A DNA stretch of 64,000 nucleotides, from assembly GCA_945889195.1 (NCBI GenBank), contig CAMDBB010000004.1, forward strand, positions 1-64,000. Reading direction: 5' to 3'. This document shows, piece after piece, positions 48,394 to 54,672 of this stretch (its first letter is position 1; each line of letters begins with the position of its first letter). The notes below the pieces were generated by a model. It saw only the letters and a program-made list of their open reading frames with translations, did no database searches and was not told the origin of the DNA. The position numbers and the translations under genes were made by a program. Source of the stretch: Bifidobacterium breve (lineage in GTDB: Bacteria; Actinomycetota; Actinomycetes; Nanopelagicales; Nanopelagicaceae).

Positions 48394-49152
48394 CTAGTAA
48401 GTAGCTCGTCCACCTGATGCATCAAAGGTGAAGCCTGTTGTAAATGAGCAAGCGCTCGATCCCATAAAGGCCAAAATCTCTGCAACTTCTTCTGCTTCAC
48501 CAACGCGACCCATCGGGATACGCGAAATCATGTACTTCAATGTTTCATCGCTGGTATCAGCATTCATCGGCGTGCGGATCACAGCAGGAGCGAGTGAGTT
48601 GATAGTGATTCCATCTGGTGCAATCTCTTTGGCAACGCCCTTTACAAAGCCAATCATTCCTGACTTAGAAACGTTATATGGGGTCATGCCTGGGTTTCCT
48701 TCTTTGCCAGCAATCGATGCCACATGCGCGATGCGCCCGTACTTAGCTTTCTTCATGTAAGGAACAACGGCTTGTGTAAGCCAGACAGTTCCAAAGAGGT
48801 TGATGCGGACAGTGGATTCGAAATCTTCCCATTTCACATCTTCAACCTTGACATTGGTTGGACCTACGACGCCTGCTGTGTTGATCAACGCATCAATACG
48901 GCCAGTGAGTTTGAAGATGGCATCAATATTTTCTTTTACCGATGTTTGGCTACCAAGATCAATGGTGGCCACTTGGTTATCAGGAAGCGATAGCTCTTTT
49001 TGAAGCGCGGTCAGACCATCACGTGCAATATCCAGTGCGAAGACTTTTCCGCCGCGCTCTGCGACCAAACGTGCAGTAGCGGCTCCGATGCCACGAGCTG
49101 CACCGGTGATGACGACAACTTGACCGGCATAGCTCACTTTATTCTCTGACAC
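48394..49152 (-). CDS. Short-chain dehydrogenase, possible 2-keto-3-deoxy-sugar-acid dehydrogenase
   Basis: A 252-residue classical SDR: cofactor loop TGAARGIGAA (17-26), NTAGVVG, catalytic Ser and YxxxK in YNVSKSGMIGF. The C-terminal FDASGGRATY is reminiscent of SDRs in sugar-acid clusters that oxidise 2-keto-3-deoxy-L-fuconate or -rhamnonate to diketo acids. Starts at GTG after AAGGGAG. It lies 36 nt downstream of glycerate kinase on the same strand, so the two are probably one operon. Substrate is inferred from context; general 3-oxoacyl reductase activity remains possible. Confidence 0.85.
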   Translation of the reverse strand: MSENKVSYAGQVVVITGAARGIGAATARLVAERGGKVFALDIARDGLTALQKELSLPDNQVATIDLGSQTSVKENIDAIFKLTGRIDALINTAGVVGPTNVKVEDVKWEDFESTVRINLFGTVWLTQAVVPYMKKAKYGRIAHVASIAGKEGNPGMTPYNVSKSGMIGFVKGVAKEIAPDGITINSLAPAVIRTPMNADTSDETLKYMISRIPMGRVGEAEEVAEILAFMGSSACSFTTGFTFDASGGRATY

Positions 49153-49188: not shown

Positions 49189-50295
49189 TTAAGAAGTAAC
49201 TGCCTTGGCAATGCTTGCTGCAATTTTCTCGATAATTGGACCAGGTTGGGTTATACATTTATCGATATCTGACTCAAATGAATGTAGCGCTGAGATTGAT
49301 TGAAATTTCTCAACTATTTCATCTGAACTGTTCAACGTGGCTTGCCCACAAATCAGCGCAACCGGAACTAATTGCTTTGATGCGATCTCCAAAATACCAA
49401 TAGGCGCCTTGCCGCTCAGACTCTGCGAATCAAATTTACCTTCACCTGTAATTACTAAGTCAGCGCCAGCAAGGTGCTTCTCAAAGTGCACAAGATCAAG
49501 AACCATCTCGATACCGCTTCTGGCCTGAGCGTTGAGAAATGTCAACGCCATATAACCAAAACCACCTGCAGCGCCCGCACCTGGTGTGTTGATATGCGCA
49601 CTTCCGGCAATCTGCGAGAACTGAGTAAGCGCGCGCTCAAGCATCTGAACGTCTTGAGCAGTTGCGCCCTTTTGTGGAGAGTAGATATGAGCTGCGCCGT
49701 GAGCGCCAAGTAGGGGATTAGTGACATCGCTAGCAAGAATGAATTCCACTTCAGAAATACGCGGATCAAATAGCGAAAGATCTATCTCTTGGCACTCTTG
49801 CAACGCAGCTCCACCGAGTGCAATTTGGCGCCCTTGGCCATCGAGTAACTTGGCGCCAAGTGCCTGTAGCGCACCTGCGCCAGCATCGGTACATGCCGAG
49901 CCACCAACGGCGAGAATTATCTTTTTTGCGCCATGATCGAGCGCAGCCTTAATGAGTTCGCCGGTTCCGTACGAGGTTGCAATAAGTGGTTCTAATTTCT
50001 TATTGGTAAGTTGAGATAGCCCCGAAGCTTGCGCCAGTTCTACAAGAGCAGTGGAGTCGCGAATACCGAATTTTGATTGAACTGTTTTATTCGTTGGCCC
50101 TGTGACCTTTACTTCAATCGGGTTGAAGCCAGCGCCGATGACTGCATCTAACGTTCCTTCACCACCATCACCAATAGCAATCTTGATTGTTTCACAATCT
50201 GGGATGGCAGAGAGAATTCCATTTTCAATCCATTGTGCAACCTCTTGCGAAGATGCGCTTCCCTTAAATGAATCGGGAACAATCACAATCTTCAT
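49189..50295 (-). CDS. Glycerate kinase (GarK/GlxK family)
   Basis: A 368-residue type I glycerate kinase phosphorylating glycerate to 2-phosphoglycerate, which enters lower glycolysis. Family blocks: VIVPDSFKGSASSQEVA (4-20), GDGGEGTLDAVI, LAVGGSACTDAGAGALQALG and VITGEGKFDSQSLSGKAP. Start ATG 50295 with TAAGAT six bases upstream. It is divergent from the FAH-UxaA operon across a 36-bp region holding both promoters. Glycerate would be the product of diketo-hexonate hydrolysis by the FAH enzyme opposite. Confidence 0.92.
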   Translation of the reverse strand: MKIVIVPDSFKGSASSQEVAQWIENGILSAIPDCETIKIAIGDGGEGTLDAVIGAGFNPIEVKVTGPTNKTVQSKFGIRDSTALVELAQASGLSQLTNKKLEPLIATSYGTGELIKAALDHGAKKIILAVGGSACTDAGAGALQALGAKLLDGQGRQIALGGAALQECQEIDLSLFDPRISEVEFILASDVTNPLLGAHGAAHIYSPQKGATAQDVQMLERALTQFSQIAGSAHINTPGAGAAGGFGYMALTFLNAQARSGIEMVLDLVHFEKHLAGADLVITGEGKFDSQSLSGKAPIGILEIASKQLVPVALICGQATLNSSDEIVEKFQSISALHSFESDIDKCITQPGPIIEKIAASIAKAVTS

Positions 50296-50331: not shown

Positions 50332-51171
50332 ATGAAAATAGCGAGATTCGGTCACATAGGTTCAGAGCGTCCGGCAGTAATGGTCAACCAGACTCAAGCA
50401 GTCTATGTAGATCACCTGATTAAGGACTGGAATCGCGACGAGCTCGTTGCCGGAGCCCTTGATAAGGTCAAGAGCGCAGATCTTTCAAGCCTTGCTCCAT
50501 TTGATATTGCAGGTCTTCGTATTGGCAGCCCAGTTGCTCGCCCTACGAAGTTAATCTGTATTGGCCTCAACTATGCACGTCACGCAGCCGAATCAGGGAT
50601 GACGCCACCACCTGAGCCGGTAGTTTTTATGAAAGCACCAGATTGCCTCATTGGGCCAAACGATGAGATCGCAGTTCCACCTAACTCAACTGCGACAGAT
50701 TATGAAGTTGAACTTAGCATCGTTATCGGAAAGCGTGCGCTCTATCTCAAATCTGAGTCAGAGGCGCGTTCTCATATCTTGGGTTACAGCATCAGCCAAG
50801 ATGTGAGCGAACGTCACTGGCAGATTGAACGTGCTGGGCAATGGGTAAAGGGAAAGTCATTTCCAACCTTTAATCCAATGGGTCCAGTCATTGTCACAAG
50901 CGATGAATTTAACCCTGACGATGTTCGCCTCTATTGCAGCGTTGATGGCGAGAAGCGCCAAGATTCACGCACCAGCGACCTCATCTTCGGGATCGATCAC
51001 ATCGTTTGGTATGTAAGCCAATTTATGGAGCTATTTCCTGGCGACATCATCAACACCGGAACTCCAGAAGGTGTTGGAATGGGATTTAAGCCAACTAAGT
51101 ACCTACAACGCGGTCAGAAGGTTGTGACTGGTATTGAAGGTATTGGCGAGATGGTCTCTCAGACAATCTAA
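50332..51171 (+). CDS. FAH-family hydrolase resembling 2,4-diketo-3-deoxy-sugar-acid hydrolase
   Basis: A 279-residue FAH-superfamily enzyme. Its N-terminal ~60-residue domain plus the core blocks ICIGLNYARHAAESGM, PPEPVVFMKAPDCLIGPND, DYEVELSIVIGKRA, QDVSERHWQIERAGQWVKGK and GTPEGVGMGFKPTKYL match the subgroup that contains L-2,4-diketo-3-deoxyrhamnonate/fuconate hydrolase, which yields pyruvate plus L-lactate. Metal-binding Glu, Glu and Asp are in place. It is 0 nt upstream of the SAF-domain gene. Known relatives are often mislabelled ureidoglycolate lyase. Confidence 0.86.
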   Translation: MKIARFGHIGSERPAVMVNQTQAVYVDHLIKDWNRDELVAGALDKVKSADLSSLAPFDIAGLRIGSPVARPTKLICIGLNYARHAAESGMTPPPEPVVFMKAPDCLIGPNDEIAVPPNSTATDYEVELSIVIGKRALYLKSESEARSHILGYSISQDVSERHWQIERAGQWVKGKSFPTFNPMGPVIVTSDEFNPDDVRLYCSVDGEKRQDSRTSDLIFGIDHIVWYVSQFMELFPGDIINTGTPEGVGMGFKPTKYLQRGQKVVTGIEGIGEMVSQTI

Positions 51172-51459
51172 ATGACAAATCCAACGCGAAAAGTCCTCAT
51201 TCTCGGTGAGCGAGACAATATCGCCGTCTGCCTTGCTGATCTTTCGGTCGGAGATTTCATCGAACAAGATGAACTCAAGATCAAGGTCCTCAACTTGATT
51301 CCAAGAGGCCACAAGATCGCGACCAAGGCGATAGCCAAGGATGAGGGAATCATCAAATATGGTGAACGCATGGGACATGCCATTGCTCCGATCTCAATCG
51401 GAGAGCATGTTCATGTCCATAATATTTTGGGCGATCGACTATCTGCGGAGCAAGTATGA
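51172..51459 (+). CDS. UxaA-family dehydratase, small SAF-domain subunit
   Basis: A 95-residue SAF domain: VLNLIPRGHKIATKAIAKDE, YGERMGHAIAPISIGEHVHV and a final HNILGD. In altronate and galactarate dehydratases this is the N-terminal domain; in sulfolactate sulfo-lyase it is a separate small subunit (SuyA). It starts immediately after the FAH stop and overlaps the next gene by 4 nt, so it should be made in step with the two larger subunits. Confidence 0.85.
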   Translation: MTNPTRKVLILGERDNIAVCLADLSVGDFIEQDELKIKVLNLIPRGHKIATKAIAKDEGIIKYGERMGHAIAPISIGEHVHVHNILGDRLSAEQV

Positions 51460-52274
51460 CTCTGTCAATATCAGGATTTGACCATGGAAATCGTGGAATA
51501 GGCATCAGGAGCCATCAGTTGATTCTCCCGACGGTCATTTGTTCGACCCATGTTTCTCGCAGAATTGCAGCAGAGGTAGGAGCGGTTACTTTTGCCCACC
51601 AACATGGTTGCGCAATTATTGGTGATGACGTTGCTGGTATCGATAACTTCTTTGTCTCTCTTGCTGATCATCCCAATGTCAGCTCGGTACTTGCGGTTGG
51701 CTTAGGTTGCGAGACTATTCAGAGCCAAGAGCTTTCTGCCAAGTTACTCGGCCGCAACAAGTCGACGCAATATCGCATCATTCAAGAAAGCGGTGGCGTT
51801 GAGGGAACTGTGGCTGCCGGAGTAAAGGCAGCACGAGAACTTTCAGAGGCATTTCCATCAGCGCCAGCTGCCGTTGCCAAGCTTCGCATCGGACTTGATC
51901 TTGGCCGCGAAGTAGATAGCGCTGCAACCCTTGAGCAACTTCTTAAAGACGAGGGGTGCGAAGTTGTTGTCGCGCGCTCAGAATCAAGTTCAGCCGAGAC
52001 TTTCTCCAAGCTCTCACAGGAAAATGTTCACATCATCATCAGCTTCCCGAGTGATAGCCAGCCCGCGTCAGGATTTCCGTTGATTCCAGTCATCAACGTG
52101 GCAGGTACCGGCGTTCTCCACCAAGCTATCCGTGGTGATTTTGATATCGACGAAAGCGCTCTTCTCTCAGGAATTGTCCAACTACTAACAGATGTAGCTA
52201 CCGGAACCGAGACCGTTGCTGAAAAGAGTAAGAGCGGCGAAATTCGAGCCCCAAGAGTTGTGAGAAGCGCATAA
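51456..52274 (+). CDS. UxaA-family dehydratase subunit with the first catalytic domain
   Basis: A 272-residue protein carrying the central GD_AH domain of altronate/galactarate dehydratases: HGNRGIGIRSHQLILPTVIC, FAHQHGCAIIGDD and HPNVSSVLAVGLGCE. The Cys and His residues of the metal site are kept here. After residue ~130 the sequence departs from the usual C-terminal domain; only a tail (ALLSGIVQLLTDVATG) resembles the end of normal UxaA. It overlaps the SAF gene by 4 nt and the third gene by 1 nt. Confidence 0.8.
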   Translation: MTLSISGFDHGNRGIGIRSHQLILPTVICSTHVSRRIAAEVGAVTFAHQHGCAIIGDDVAGIDNFFVSLADHPNVSSVLAVGLGCETIQSQELSAKLLGRNKSTQYRIIQESGGVEGTVAAGVKAARELSEAFPSAPAAVAKLRIGLDLGREVDSAATLEQLLKDEGCEVVVARSESSSAETFSKLSQENVHIIISFPSDSQPASGFPLIPVINVAGTGVLHQAIRGDFDIDESALLSGIVQLLTDVATGTETVAEKSKSGEIRAPRVVRSA

Positions 52275-53437
52275 TGTCAGCGCCACTTAAAGCATATAAG
52301 CGCGCTAATGGTGCCTGGGGTCTACGTAATCAAGTACTTATCTTGCCGCTGCATTCAGCGCTTTCATCTACAGCCCGGGCTATCGCAGATAACTCAGATG
52401 GCGCTGTTGCCATTAGCCACGACTGGTCAGGCGAGAAAGATAACGATTTAGCCCGCATCATCTTCACTCTTAGTGGCTATGCATCTAACCCAAATATCTT
52501 CGCAACAATCTTCCTATCAATTGGTAACCCCGAAGAAGAGCAGATCATTAAGGGCGCGCAGGCGCTGGGCTTAACTCGCTTTAGCAATCTCTTACTTCCT
52601 GAAATTGGCTCTATGGAGAAGTTGCAGCAGCAAGCGCTCACTATTGCCAATGGTTATGTGAAAGAAGCTAGCGCCGAAGTGCGAGTAGATGCGCCTTGGA
52701 GCGCCATCGTTCTTGGCCTTGAATGCGGAGGCTCTGATGCGCTCTCTGGAATTACAGCAAACCCAGCGCTTGGCGTTGCAAGCGATCGCCTCGTTGAGTT
52801 AGGTGCATCATCTGTACTCGGTGAAACAACTGAAATTCTCGGAGCAGAGCACCTGCTTGCCGCTCGCGCCATCGATCCAGCTGTTGGTAAGAAAATTGTT
52901 GAAATGGTTGCACGTTACGAAGATTCGATTAACTACGAAGGTATCGACATTCGTGGAGCGCAGCCCTCACGCGGAAATATTGAAGGAGGACTTTCGACTC
53001 TTGAGGAGAAGTCATTAGGAGCAGCCAAGAAAGCTGGTAATGCTCCCTTTACTGGCACCCTTGAATTTGGTGAGATTCCTAAAGTTGCGGGTCTCTACTT
53101 TATGGATACGCCTGGCCATGACATTGAACAGTTGGCCGGCTTTGGCGCAGGACATATCAACGTCGTCGTCTTTACCTCTGGCCGCGGCACTCCAACAGGA
53201 TCTGCCATCATGCCGACCATCAAAGTTTCAACAAATACGCCTATGTATGAATCTATTCCAGATCTGATTGATCTAGATGCTGGCACTATCGCAGATGGCA
53301 TCGAGACTTTGGCAGAGGTTGGTGACCGTATCTTTGATGAAATCGTTCACGTCGCGAACGGACAATTAACCAAGGCTGAACGCGGTGGCCATCATGAATT
53401 CGCTCTTTCAAGAATGTATAACACTGTCGTTCGTTAA
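52274..53437 (+). CDS. UxaA-family dehydratase, large subunit with the C-terminal domain
   Basis: A 387-residue paralogue-like subunit. It opens with YKRANGAWGLRNQVLILPLH, a second copy of the GD_AH N-region, but the HxxGC motif has become ISHDWSGEKD and the later Cys is also lost (IFLSIGNPEEEQ). The C-terminal domain is well kept: IVLGLECGGSDALSGITANP, GETTEILGAEHLL and PTGSAIMPTIKV. Together with the 272-residue subunit it would supply one good copy of each domain. L-fuconate, L-rhamnonate, altronate or galactarate are possible substrates. Confidence 0.82.
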   Translation: MSAPLKAYKRANGAWGLRNQVLILPLHSALSSTARAIADNSDGAVAISHDWSGEKDNDLARIIFTLSGYASNPNIFATIFLSIGNPEEEQIIKGAQALGLTRFSNLLLPEIGSMEKLQQQALTIANGYVKEASAEVRVDAPWSAIVLGLECGGSDALSGITANPALGVASDRLVELGASSVLGETTEILGAEHLLAARAIDPAVGKKIVEMVARYEDSINYEGIDIRGAQPSRGNIEGGLSTLEEKSLGAAKKAGNAPFTGTLEFGEIPKVAGLYFMDTPGHDIEQLAGFGAGHINVVVFTSGRGTPTGSAIMPTIKVSTNTPMYESIPDLIDLDAGTIADGIETLAEVGDRIFDEIVHVANGQLTKAERGGHHEFALSRMYNTVVR

Positions 53438-53442
53438 GTGAA

Positions 53443-54672
53443 TTAGTTTCGATTCAGCAAGCGCACGTGCCGAGGCTGTAGTTCGTCGAGAGTACGCACA
53501 CCTAGCAACTTCATATTTCGGATCATCTGCCCCTGCATAATCGTCAGTGCGCGTTCTACGCCATCTTGTCCGCCAGCCATGAGGCCATATAGATAAGCGC
53601 GACCGATGTAGGTGAAGTTAGCTCCGTGAGCGATAGCTGCTAGAACATCTGCGCCATGCATGATTCCGGTATCAATATGTAGTTCAAAATCTTTCTTAAA
53701 CTCTTTCTTGATATCTGCAAGTAGGTGCAGCGGAATCGGTGCCTTATCGAGCTGACGACCACCATGGTTTGAAAGAAGCACCGCATCAGCGCCTAACTTG
53801 GCAGCCATCTTGGCATCTTCTAGGTTCTGCACACCCTTAACGATGAGATTGCCATCCCATTCACTACGAATCCACTTCAGATCCTCAAATGTCATTGTTG
53901 GGTCAAACATGTAATCCAGAAGTTCGCCAACGGTTCCGTTCCATGAAGACATCGATGCAAATTCAATGGCAGGAGTTGTTAAGAAGTTCATCCACCAAGC
54001 TGGTCGAGGAATGGCATTAAGCAGAGTCTTTACAGTCAGAGTTGGCGGAATAGTTAGACCGTTATAGGTATCGCGCAATCTGTGGCCTGCAGCTGGAACA
54101 TCGACAGTCAGGTGGAGAGTCTTTACTCCGGCCTGTCGTGCACGTTCAACCAGCGCCATTGAACCTTCGCGGTCTTTCCACATATAAAGCTGGAACCAGT
54201 TATCACCGCTAGGGGCAGCCTTTACAACATCCTCAATAGAAGTTGTTCCAAGAGTTGAAAGCGAGAAGGGAATTCCAAACTTTTCGGCAGCGCGCGCACC
54301 AGCGATTTCGCCTTCGGTCTGCATCAAACGGGTAAATCCTGTTGGAGCGATTCCCATCGGCATCTGATGGGTAACTCCAAAGACTTTGCGAGAGAGATCT
54401 ACATTAGAAACATCGCGCAAGATATTTGGTACGAGTTCGATATCGCGAAATGCTTGACGCGCGCGATCAAGTGAGGCCTCAGATTCAGCAGCGCCATCGG
54501 TGTAATCAAATGGACCTTGTGGCGTGCGCTTTTTAGCGATATCGCGCAGATCCCAGATGGTTGCCGCACGAGTTAAACGCGCCTTTTTACGATGAAGAGA
54601 TGGTCCACGAAAGCGCATCAACTGCGCAAGCTTTATTGGGTTCGGTAGCTGGCGCTTGACGTTCTTAGACAT
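53443..54672 (-). CDS. lldD: FMN-dependent alpha-hydroxy-acid dehydrogenase (L-lactate dehydrogenase type)
   Basis: A 409-residue flavoenzyme oxidising L-2-hydroxy acids, most often L-lactate to pyruvate, with electrons passed to the quinone pool. FMN/substrate blocks: PFDYTDGAAESEASLDRARQ, PMGIAPTGFTRLMQ, LTVDVPAAGHRLRDTYNGL and the catalytic His in LLSNHGGRQLDKAP. Own leaderless promoter. It converges on the UxaA operon with a 5-nt gap. In the proposed pathway it would consume the L-lactate released from 6-deoxy sugar acids. Glycolate or mandelate specificity is not excluded. Confidence 0.9.
   Translation of the reverse strand: MSKNVKRQLPNPIKLAQLMRFRGPSLHRKKARLTRAATIWDLRDIAKKRTPQGPFDYTDGAAESEASLDRARQAFRDIELVPNILRDVSNVDLSRKVFGVTHQMPMGIAPTGFTRLMQTEGEIAGARAAEKFGIPFSLSTLGTTSIEDVVKAAPSGDNWFQLYMWKDREGSMALVERARQAGVKTLHLTVDVPAAGHRLRDTYNGLTIPPTLTVKTLLNAIPRPAWWMNFLTTPAIEFASMSSWNGTVGELLDYMFDPTMTFEDLKWIRSEWDGNLIVKGVQNLEDAKMAAKLGADAVLLSNHGGRQLDKAPIPLHLLADIKKEFKKDFELHIDTGIMHGADVLAAIAHGANFTYIGRAYLYGLMAGGQDGVERALTIMQGQMIRNMKLLGVRTLDELQPRHVRLLNRN

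Follow-up and report, generated by a model that had tools for sequence, protein, structure and literature searches.

Within a 64,000-nucleotide stretch of contig CAMDBB010000004.1 (assembly GCA_945889195.1), hereafter the window, three overlapping genes encode the domains of the UxaA/GarD dehydratase family on separate chains. The window belongs to the freshwater actinobacterial family Nanopelagicaceae (acI), and the chains are a small SAF-domain subunit and two large-chain relatives, here called N272 and C387. Three overlapping frames of 95, 272 and 387 residues had been proposed by a first-pass annotation of this DNA, and both their exact coordinates and the positions of their motifs are confirmed. 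The genes and the codons of four cysteines, designated C1 to C4, are as follows.

51172..51459, + strand: SAF-domain small subunit, 95 aa, the UxaA/GarD N-terminal domain as a chain of its own (PF08666, 28.8 bits; cut-off 21)
51456..52274, + strand: N272, a large-chain relative of 272 aa with GD_AH_second and a shrunken C-terminal domain (Pfam, model and alignment)
52274..53437, + strand: C387, a catalytic-type large chain of 387 aa with GD_AH_second degraded and GD_AH_C intact (Pfam and alignment)
51540..51542, + strand: codon of Cys29 of N272 (C1, motif LPTVIC)
51609..51611, + strand: codon of Cys52 of N272 (C2, motif HQHGC)
51708..51710, + strand: codon of Cys85 of N272 (C3, motif GLGCE)
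52724..52726, + strand: codon of Cys151 of C387 (C4, motif GLECGGSDALSGITANP)

The SAF and N272 frames overlap by 4 bases (ATGA), and those of N272 and C387 by 1 base (TAATG). Pfam GD_AH_second (PF04295, cut-off 27.3) is matched by N272 at 94.3 bits and by C387 at 57.4 bits, and GD_AH_C (PF20629, cut-off 26.8) by C387 at 302.9 bits, with N272 below the cut-off at 15.3 bits. The assigned SAF, GD_AH_second and GD_AH_C matches are not due to chance, as their scores exceed the Pfam cut-offs; the SAF chain also matches the SAF-domain structure 3k3s (E 3.1e-15). All three domains of the UxaA/GarD family (COG2721) are therefore present, spread over three genes, and the profile searches bear out the earlier proposal of a UxaA-type dehydratase build divided in this way. 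The whole 1.43-Mb genome has no PF04295 match at E<=0.001 besides N272 and C387. Scanned singly, the chains do not reach the galactarate dehydratase equivalog TIGR03248 (cut-off 730.85; C387 208.5, SAF 31.8 and N272 17.6 bits). Chance or misassembly as the source of the triplet was ruled out, given that the frames and motifs recur in 67 loci.

According to the available text of PMC6336799, Herbaspirillum D-arabinonate dehydratase and the UxaA/GarD superfamily share four cysteines (134, 173, 208 and 276) that are proposed iron ligands, SuyAB being excepted. We aligned a panel of 56 chains, 15 of them canonical (8 one-chain and 7 two-chain enzymes, with GarD entered only as its PDB chain), and treated a column as conserved when it was kept in at least 14 of the 15 canonical chains. 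This gave 64 columns, 15 in the second domain and 49 in the C-terminal domain. Because C1 to C4 are the sole cysteine columns among them, lying in E. coli UxaA within LPTVGC, HxxGC, GLGCE and ECGG, they most plausibly correspond to the published four. Every canonical enzyme, whether one-chain or two-chain, carries all four in a single chain (CCCC, 15/15). In the acI triplet, N272 and its orthologs hold C1 to C3 and lack C4 (9/9), and C387 and its orthologs hold C4 alone (9/9), Cys151 being the only cysteine of C387. Four conserved cysteines, which the family has in one large chain, are thus found here only in the set of chains, three in N272 and one in C387. We fetched 67 acI loci, some genomes being represented twice, which yielded 49 distinct N sequences (one a fragment) and one locus, L106, truncated at a contig end. 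All 66 N chains covering the positions read CCC, and all 67 C chains have C4 and no cysteine at C1 to C3, the C1 position being uncovered in L043 and L065. The first-pass annotation correctly confined HQHGC and GLGCE to the 272-residue chain; it also quoted ILPTVIC beside ILPLHSA, and missed that Cys29 makes this a third complementary motif. Since the four cysteines are divided 3+1 between them, the two large chains probably work only together.

A detached SAF chain is found in other enzymes of this kind. The earlier account described UxaA and GarD as single chains and SuyAB as two, which is right as far as it goes, and it overlooked two-chain UxaA-type loci. These share with the triplet a separate SAF chain, a large chain of ~390 aa with an intact C domain and a sugar-acid context, but their sole large chain keeps all four cysteines (7/7 CCCC) and no second large chain is present. 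One example is a pair in a cluster with fucP (L118). According to the same available text of PMC6336799, a Paraburkholderia mimosarum pair, not among the seven aligned here, is an L-fuconate dehydratase of heteromeric structure, on the basis of gene context and unpublished data. Because loci with SAF and one four-cysteine large chain exist, what appears to be new in the acI triplet is the second large chain.

The division of the large chains also applies to conserved positions other than the cysteines. Counting conserved columns kept in at least 90% of rows, N272 and its orthologs retain 12/15 in the N part and 7/49 in the C part, whereas C387 and its orthologs retain 7/15 and 44/49, and the division of labour suggested earlier for these chains is strongly supported. 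Mean pairwise identity in the N and C parts is 0.63 and 0.46 for N272, against 0.48 and 0.79 for C387. In addition, the AlphaFold2 model of N272 (mean predicted local distance difference test score, pLDDT, 80.6; predicted template modelling score 0.83; 12 sequences in the alignment) has galactarate dehydratase 6u7l as its top PDB match in a fold search, the four chains of 6u7l being the only matches at E<=0.001. The two superpose with Z 19.5 and a root-mean-square deviation (rmsd) of 3.5 over 239 aligned residues, spanning GarD 116-523 and hence both large-chain domains. A phmmer search of the N272 sequence against the PDB returned no match, so the link to GarD comes from the fold comparison. 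The low-confidence model of C387 aligns to 6u7l with Z 25.3 and rmsd 3.4 over 302 residues. Scores for GD_AH_C are graded among N-type chains, from 93.4 bits in the B chain of Halomicrobium (L047) through 36.6 in the N chain of L127, which passes the cut-off, to the 15.3 of N272. A reading of N272 as one bare domain was ruled out by this graded series and by the extent of the model. N272 and C387 are full-length relatives degraded in opposite halves, because N272 keeps a short C-terminal domain, as its own and its relative's GD_AH_C scores and the GarD-spanning model indicate. The earlier claim that only the 387-residue chain has the C-terminal domain therefore holds for the intact copy, but not for the shortened one that N272 retains.

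The two large chains also co-occur strictly. N272 orthologs occur in 49 of the 296 family genomes and C387 orthologs in the identical 49, so that a check suggested by the first-pass annotation, for the 272-residue chain conserved in genomes without the others, returned no such case. A survey of relatives for the three-gene order, likewise suggested there, found SAF-N-C in 66 of the 67 acI loci; L106 lacks only the SAF end, at its contig end. Both large chains are under purifying selection, with ratios of nonsynonymous to synonymous substitution (dN/dS) between the window and L033 of 0.048 for N272, 0.036 for C387 and 0.040 for the flanking LldD-type gene, the values for the two large chains being only approximate because their dS is near or above 0.8.

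The survey covered Nanopelagicaceae, a sample of the phylum, a second actinobacterial order and, for other phyla, a plasmid collection. Searching 396 sampled genomes of the phylum with an N272 profile (E<=1e-6) gave 25 genomes besides that of the window, among them one with a further three-gene locus, L127 in genome G861. Of the 29 loci fetched from this search, some places twice, 24 hold a canonical four-cysteine chain; the others are L127 and L154 (both G861), L141 (at a contig end), L142 (broken frame) and L151 (SuyB-like). At L142:725-2125 a SAF and large-chain locus has its large chain in two overlapping frames, a possible frameshift or assembly error. Among 201 sampled genomes of the order of G861, three carry the triplet (G861, G948 and G966), all with SAF-N-C order and the same 3+1 split.

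Of the records in the plasmid collection, 16 match the Halomicrobium B chain over 80% or more of its length, every one of them from haloarchaea. The haloarchaeal triplets share with acI the 3+1 split over two large chains and a SAF gene, but their order is A-SAF-B in all nine loci read (L047-L051, L054, L113-L115), and B is full length (364-393 aa) with a recognisable GD_AH_C. Their genes overlap by 1-4 bases, except before a mis-set B start in L049. C1 to C3 are absent and C4 is kept in A (9/9), and B has C1 to C3 and lacks C4 (8/8 in the panel, the ninth, in L049, being alike). Conserved columns in the N and C parts are kept at 11/15 and 47/49 in A and at 13/15 and 13/49 in B; the corresponding mean identities are 0.63 and 0.80 for A and, with a small contrast, 0.58 and 0.51 for B. 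These proteins are annotated solely as 'UxaA family hydrolase'. In the Halostagnicola locus (L049:5882-7089) the annotated B start is mis-set, with a 'hypothetical protein' over the first part, whereas the DNA itself gives a single uninterrupted B chain.

Trees of the two domains bear on how the split arose. C-domain trees were built without N272-type chains, which are too short, and the later N-domain panel without four long-branch rows (Klebsiella, E. coli UxaA, L029 and Haloarcula). C chains of both actinobacterial lineages form one group (support 99/96 in the C-domain and 98/94 in the N-domain tree), as do their N chains (99/91, N-domain tree). Because each chain type groups across both lineages, the comparison fits one origin for the actinobacterial split. 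For the haloarchaeal split, long branches are involved and we claim neither history: the C-domain tree, with haloarchaeal A outside the group of actinobacterial C chains and four-cysteine dehydratases, favours a separate origin, whereas the N-domain tree leans slightly towards a shared one, since haloarchaeal B falls there with actinobacterial N (weakly, 74/78) and haloarchaeal A, without support (21/0), with actinobacterial C. Forcing acI C and haloarchaeal A together was rejected, with an approximately unbiased test p value (p-AU) of 0.007, in the first C-domain panel, where the group was named after the tree had been seen, but no longer once three second-lineage loci and five canonical chains were added (0.108, and 0.128 with SuyB-like chains). 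Haloarchaeal A and B held together gave p-AU 0.189 on the C domain and 0.409 and 0.429 on the N domain, so this grouping is not rejected either.

The triplet is real, conserved and more specific than the first-pass annotation described. We consider it probable, with appreciable room for doubt, that the products of the three genes form a single sugar-acid dehydratase of UxaA/GarD type, an obligate heteromer in which two subunits together make up the iron site; the complex, the iron, the contacts and the reaction are predictions. The case rests on the complementary losses, the conserved gene order, strict co-occurrence, purifying selection and the GarD-like model of N272. In such an enzyme, the C-terminal domain for substrate and metal, including the GLECGG cysteine, would come from C387. 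As a large-chain paralog with a reduced C-terminal domain and no GLECGG motif, N272 would contribute the iron-ligand portion of the second domain through its three cysteines (LPTVIC, HQHGC and GLGCE), and the SAF chain the detached N-terminal domain. In GarD, the second domain is reportedly the dimer interface and the metal is said to lie in the C-terminal domain; should this hold, pairing of N272 with C387 would probably take the place of the large-chain homodimer, leaving one live and one dead site. The functional iron site would comprise three cysteines of N272 and one of C387, with the reciprocal site decayed, and one active site would be assembled from SAF, the N272 iron-ligand domain and the C387 substrate domain. 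The broader proposition, on which we are evenly divided, is that a dehydratase iron site lies across a subunit boundary with 3+1 ligands in the freshwater actinobacterial family, a second order and haloarchaea, and that complementary losses in an ancestor with all four cysteines may have produced this arrangement repeatedly.

Several observations weigh against this assembly. The rubredoxin-like four-cysteine iron site is itself a proposal in the available text of PMC6336799. In the N272 model, residues 53-55, in the loop after Cys52, and the last 12 residues (261-272) fall below pLDDT 50, and the C387 model is poor overall (mean pLDDT 61.9). The N part of haloarchaeal A is otherwise well kept, so that decay there is mostly at the cysteines. 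The N-domain trees do not place N272 and C387 as sisters; holding them together on the N domain gave p-AU 0.251 in the first panel and 0.293 in the later one, which does not reject the grouping, yet the best tree does not join them. Of the earlier suggestion of duplication followed by losses, the complementary losses stand, whereas duplication at this locus is neither joined in the best tree nor rejected. Finally, SuyAB is described in print as working with only a SAF partner, and C1 to C3 are missing in 6/6 SuyB-like chains of our panel (C4 is present in 5/6), so the loss of these cysteines from C387 is no proof in itself that N272 is needed.

These last points underlie the chief rival, which we regard as unlikely, namely that SAF and C387 are sufficient as a complete enzyme of SuyAB build that needs no cysteine iron site, with N272 a helper in iron delivery, assembly or regulation. 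SuyAB, a (2R)-sulfolactate sulfo-lyase, resembles the SAF-C387 pair in having a SAF chain and a large chain without C1 to C3. Moreover, 59 other Nanopelagicaceae genomes match C387 solely through chains of 32-36% identity, and in the two of these that were read (L031 and L032) the chain is SuyB-like, with a SAF gene adjoining and no N272 beside it. However, C387 keeps a dehydratase-type C domain, retaining 44/49 conserved columns there against 28/49 in SuyB-like chains (which keep 6/15 in the N part); the SuyB-like label is inferred, and the comparison uses actinobacterial chains so labelled, with no characterised SuyB in the alignment. Where those chains read KCGESD...SGLGSCP, C387 has the dehydratase-type GGSD...SGITANP, read as ECGGSDALSGITANP, and in the C-domain tree it groups with the four-cysteine dehydratases (95/93), away from SuyB-like chains. 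Unlike in SuyAB, an N272-like third chain stands between SAF and C387 in the window and in all 66 acI loci found with SAF, N and C. C387 never occurs without N272 in the 296 genomes (49/49), and the N272 cysteines are invariant where covered. Two genomes, G262 and G531, carry both the triplet and a chain of the 32-36% identity kind.

It is quite improbable, in our estimate, that N272 has another job as a metal or iron-sulfur protein in its own right, such as a homodimer with its own cluster held by three cysteines, and is co-expressed with C387 but not bound to it. Three cysteines suffice to ligate a [4Fe-4S] cluster with one open iron. Four weaker N272-profile matches (E 8.1e-31 to 1.5e-23), in G538, G444 and G445 and at a second place in G535, were counted apart. 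These orphans (L084-L087) are open frames of 287-378 codons with 24-28% identity to N272, and no SAF or C387 match lies within the 4.8-9 kb fetched around them. The two that were read are as follows.

L084:4034-5158, + strand: orphan N272-like chain, 374 aa, C2 lost (by eye)
L086:4020-5123, - strand: orphan N272-like chain, 367 aa, C1 to C3 lost (by eye)

Orphan frames of this kind count in favour of a separate role, but the two that were read have lost cysteines and thus lend no support to an independent cluster protein. N272 proper never occurs without C387 (49/49 genomes) and lies in the same gene order. The orphan chains may be repurposed N272 copies. The one in L084 follows an enolase-superfamily dehydratase whose nearest match is L-rhamnonate dehydratase (308.7 bits, below the cut-off of 393). 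Lastly, the view of N272 as a functionless remnant of a decaying duplication, to which its shortened C-terminal domain and missing catalytic motifs might point, is disfavoured and scarcely credible given a dN/dS near those of C387 and the LldD-type gene, C1 to C3 kept in all 66 covering copies, and its presence in every one of the 49 genomes with C387.

An obligate heteromer of this kind would resemble single-chain UxaA (D-altronate dehydratase) and GarD in its three domains, its summed four cysteines and the GarD fold, and differ from them in having three chains, two of them large, with cysteines split 3+1 and neither large chain holding all motifs. Heteromers of complementary degenerate paralogs are known, for example the heteromeric archaeal tRNA-splicing endonucleases, in which each paralog keeps part of the active site; those are not homologous to the triplet, where it is a proposed metal site that would be shared out. 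Among the matches listed in the open-access literature, no title described a three-subunit UxaA-type enzyme, which is weak evidence of novelty since subscription journals lie mostly outside that collection. For the UxaA/GarD family, neither the iron site nor the mechanism is yet well defined, and we found one full-length structure in PDB comparisons (6u7l). The natural 3+1 split would make the iron carrier, the substrate binder and the need for C1 to C3 testable by mix-and-match, and would offer a clear case of two paralogs made mutually dependent through complementary loss, in freshwater bacteria and haloarchaea. It also cautions that a run of three genes labelled 'UxaA family hydrolase' can encode a single enzyme.

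The genes around the triplet in the window, included as context, suggest the pathway in which it may act.

50332..51171, + strand: FAH-family hydrolase, abutting the SAF gene; nearest NCBIfam model 2,4-didehydro-3-deoxy-L-rhamnonate hydrolase, 262.5 bits (below the cut-off of 500)
49189..50295, - strand: glycerate kinase, divergent neighbour
48394..49152, - strand: SDR dehydrogenase, possibly a 2-keto-3-deoxy acid 4-dehydrogenase
53443..54672, - strand: flavin mononucleotide (FMN)-dependent alpha-hydroxyacid dehydrogenase of L-lactate type, convergent neighbour

The FAH gene ends at 51171, immediately 5' of the SAF start at 51172. Together, the FAH-hydrolase, SDR, glycerate kinase and FMN hydroxyacid dehydrogenase genes match a route, described for L-fucose in PMC11199699, in which a 2-keto-3-deoxy acid is oxidised and then split to pyruvate and a hydroxyacid. 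The reaction is likely the conversion of a sugar acid to its 2-keto-3-deoxy acid, and the enzyme of the window probably acts on an acid that enters the SDR and FAH-hydrolase route, of fuconate, rhamnonate, arabinonate or altronate type. Neighbours were compared in 19 loci. In 8 of these the triplet lies beside a glucuronate isomerase gene (uxaC) and a mannitol-dehydrogenase-family (uxaB/uxuB-type) gene. In L040, the one scanned, uxaC scores 507.8 bits against NF002794 (above the cut-off of 387), and the mannitol-dehydrogenase-family gene is nearest to fructuronate reductase at 225.2 bits (below the cut-off of 603). Because these genes adjoin, altronate is the likely substrate in the uxaC-linked relatives. 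In three loci the triplet follows rhamnulokinase-like and class II aldolase genes, in two (L037 and L121, probably the same genome, given contigs of equal length) it is near alpha-L-fucosidase and DHDPS-family aldolase genes, and the remaining six, the window among them, have other neighbours.

A few loci show local irregularities. A broken frame near the junction of N and C in L043 and L065 cuts the N chain short (at 261 aa in L043), and the match to C begins at residue 43; the break is either real or an assembly error, and the two are perhaps one locus seen twice. One in-frame TAA lies inside the C387 match in each of G531:C99:44251-45402 and G534:C35:13680-14828. Between the window and L033, dS drops along the locus (SAF 1.40, N272 1.12, C387 0.79, LldD-type gene 0.43), and upstream of SAF the window has the FAH gene where L033 has sugar kinases; the gradient and the differing upstream genes suggest recombination or exchange of a cassette with its end close to the SAF gene. 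Lastly, a metagenome-assembled genome titled 'Streptomycetaceae bacterium' (L034, JAIXPU010000099.1) contains a triplet with an N chain 89% identical to that of the window and three flanking genes at 97-99%, and its title is probably a mislabel.

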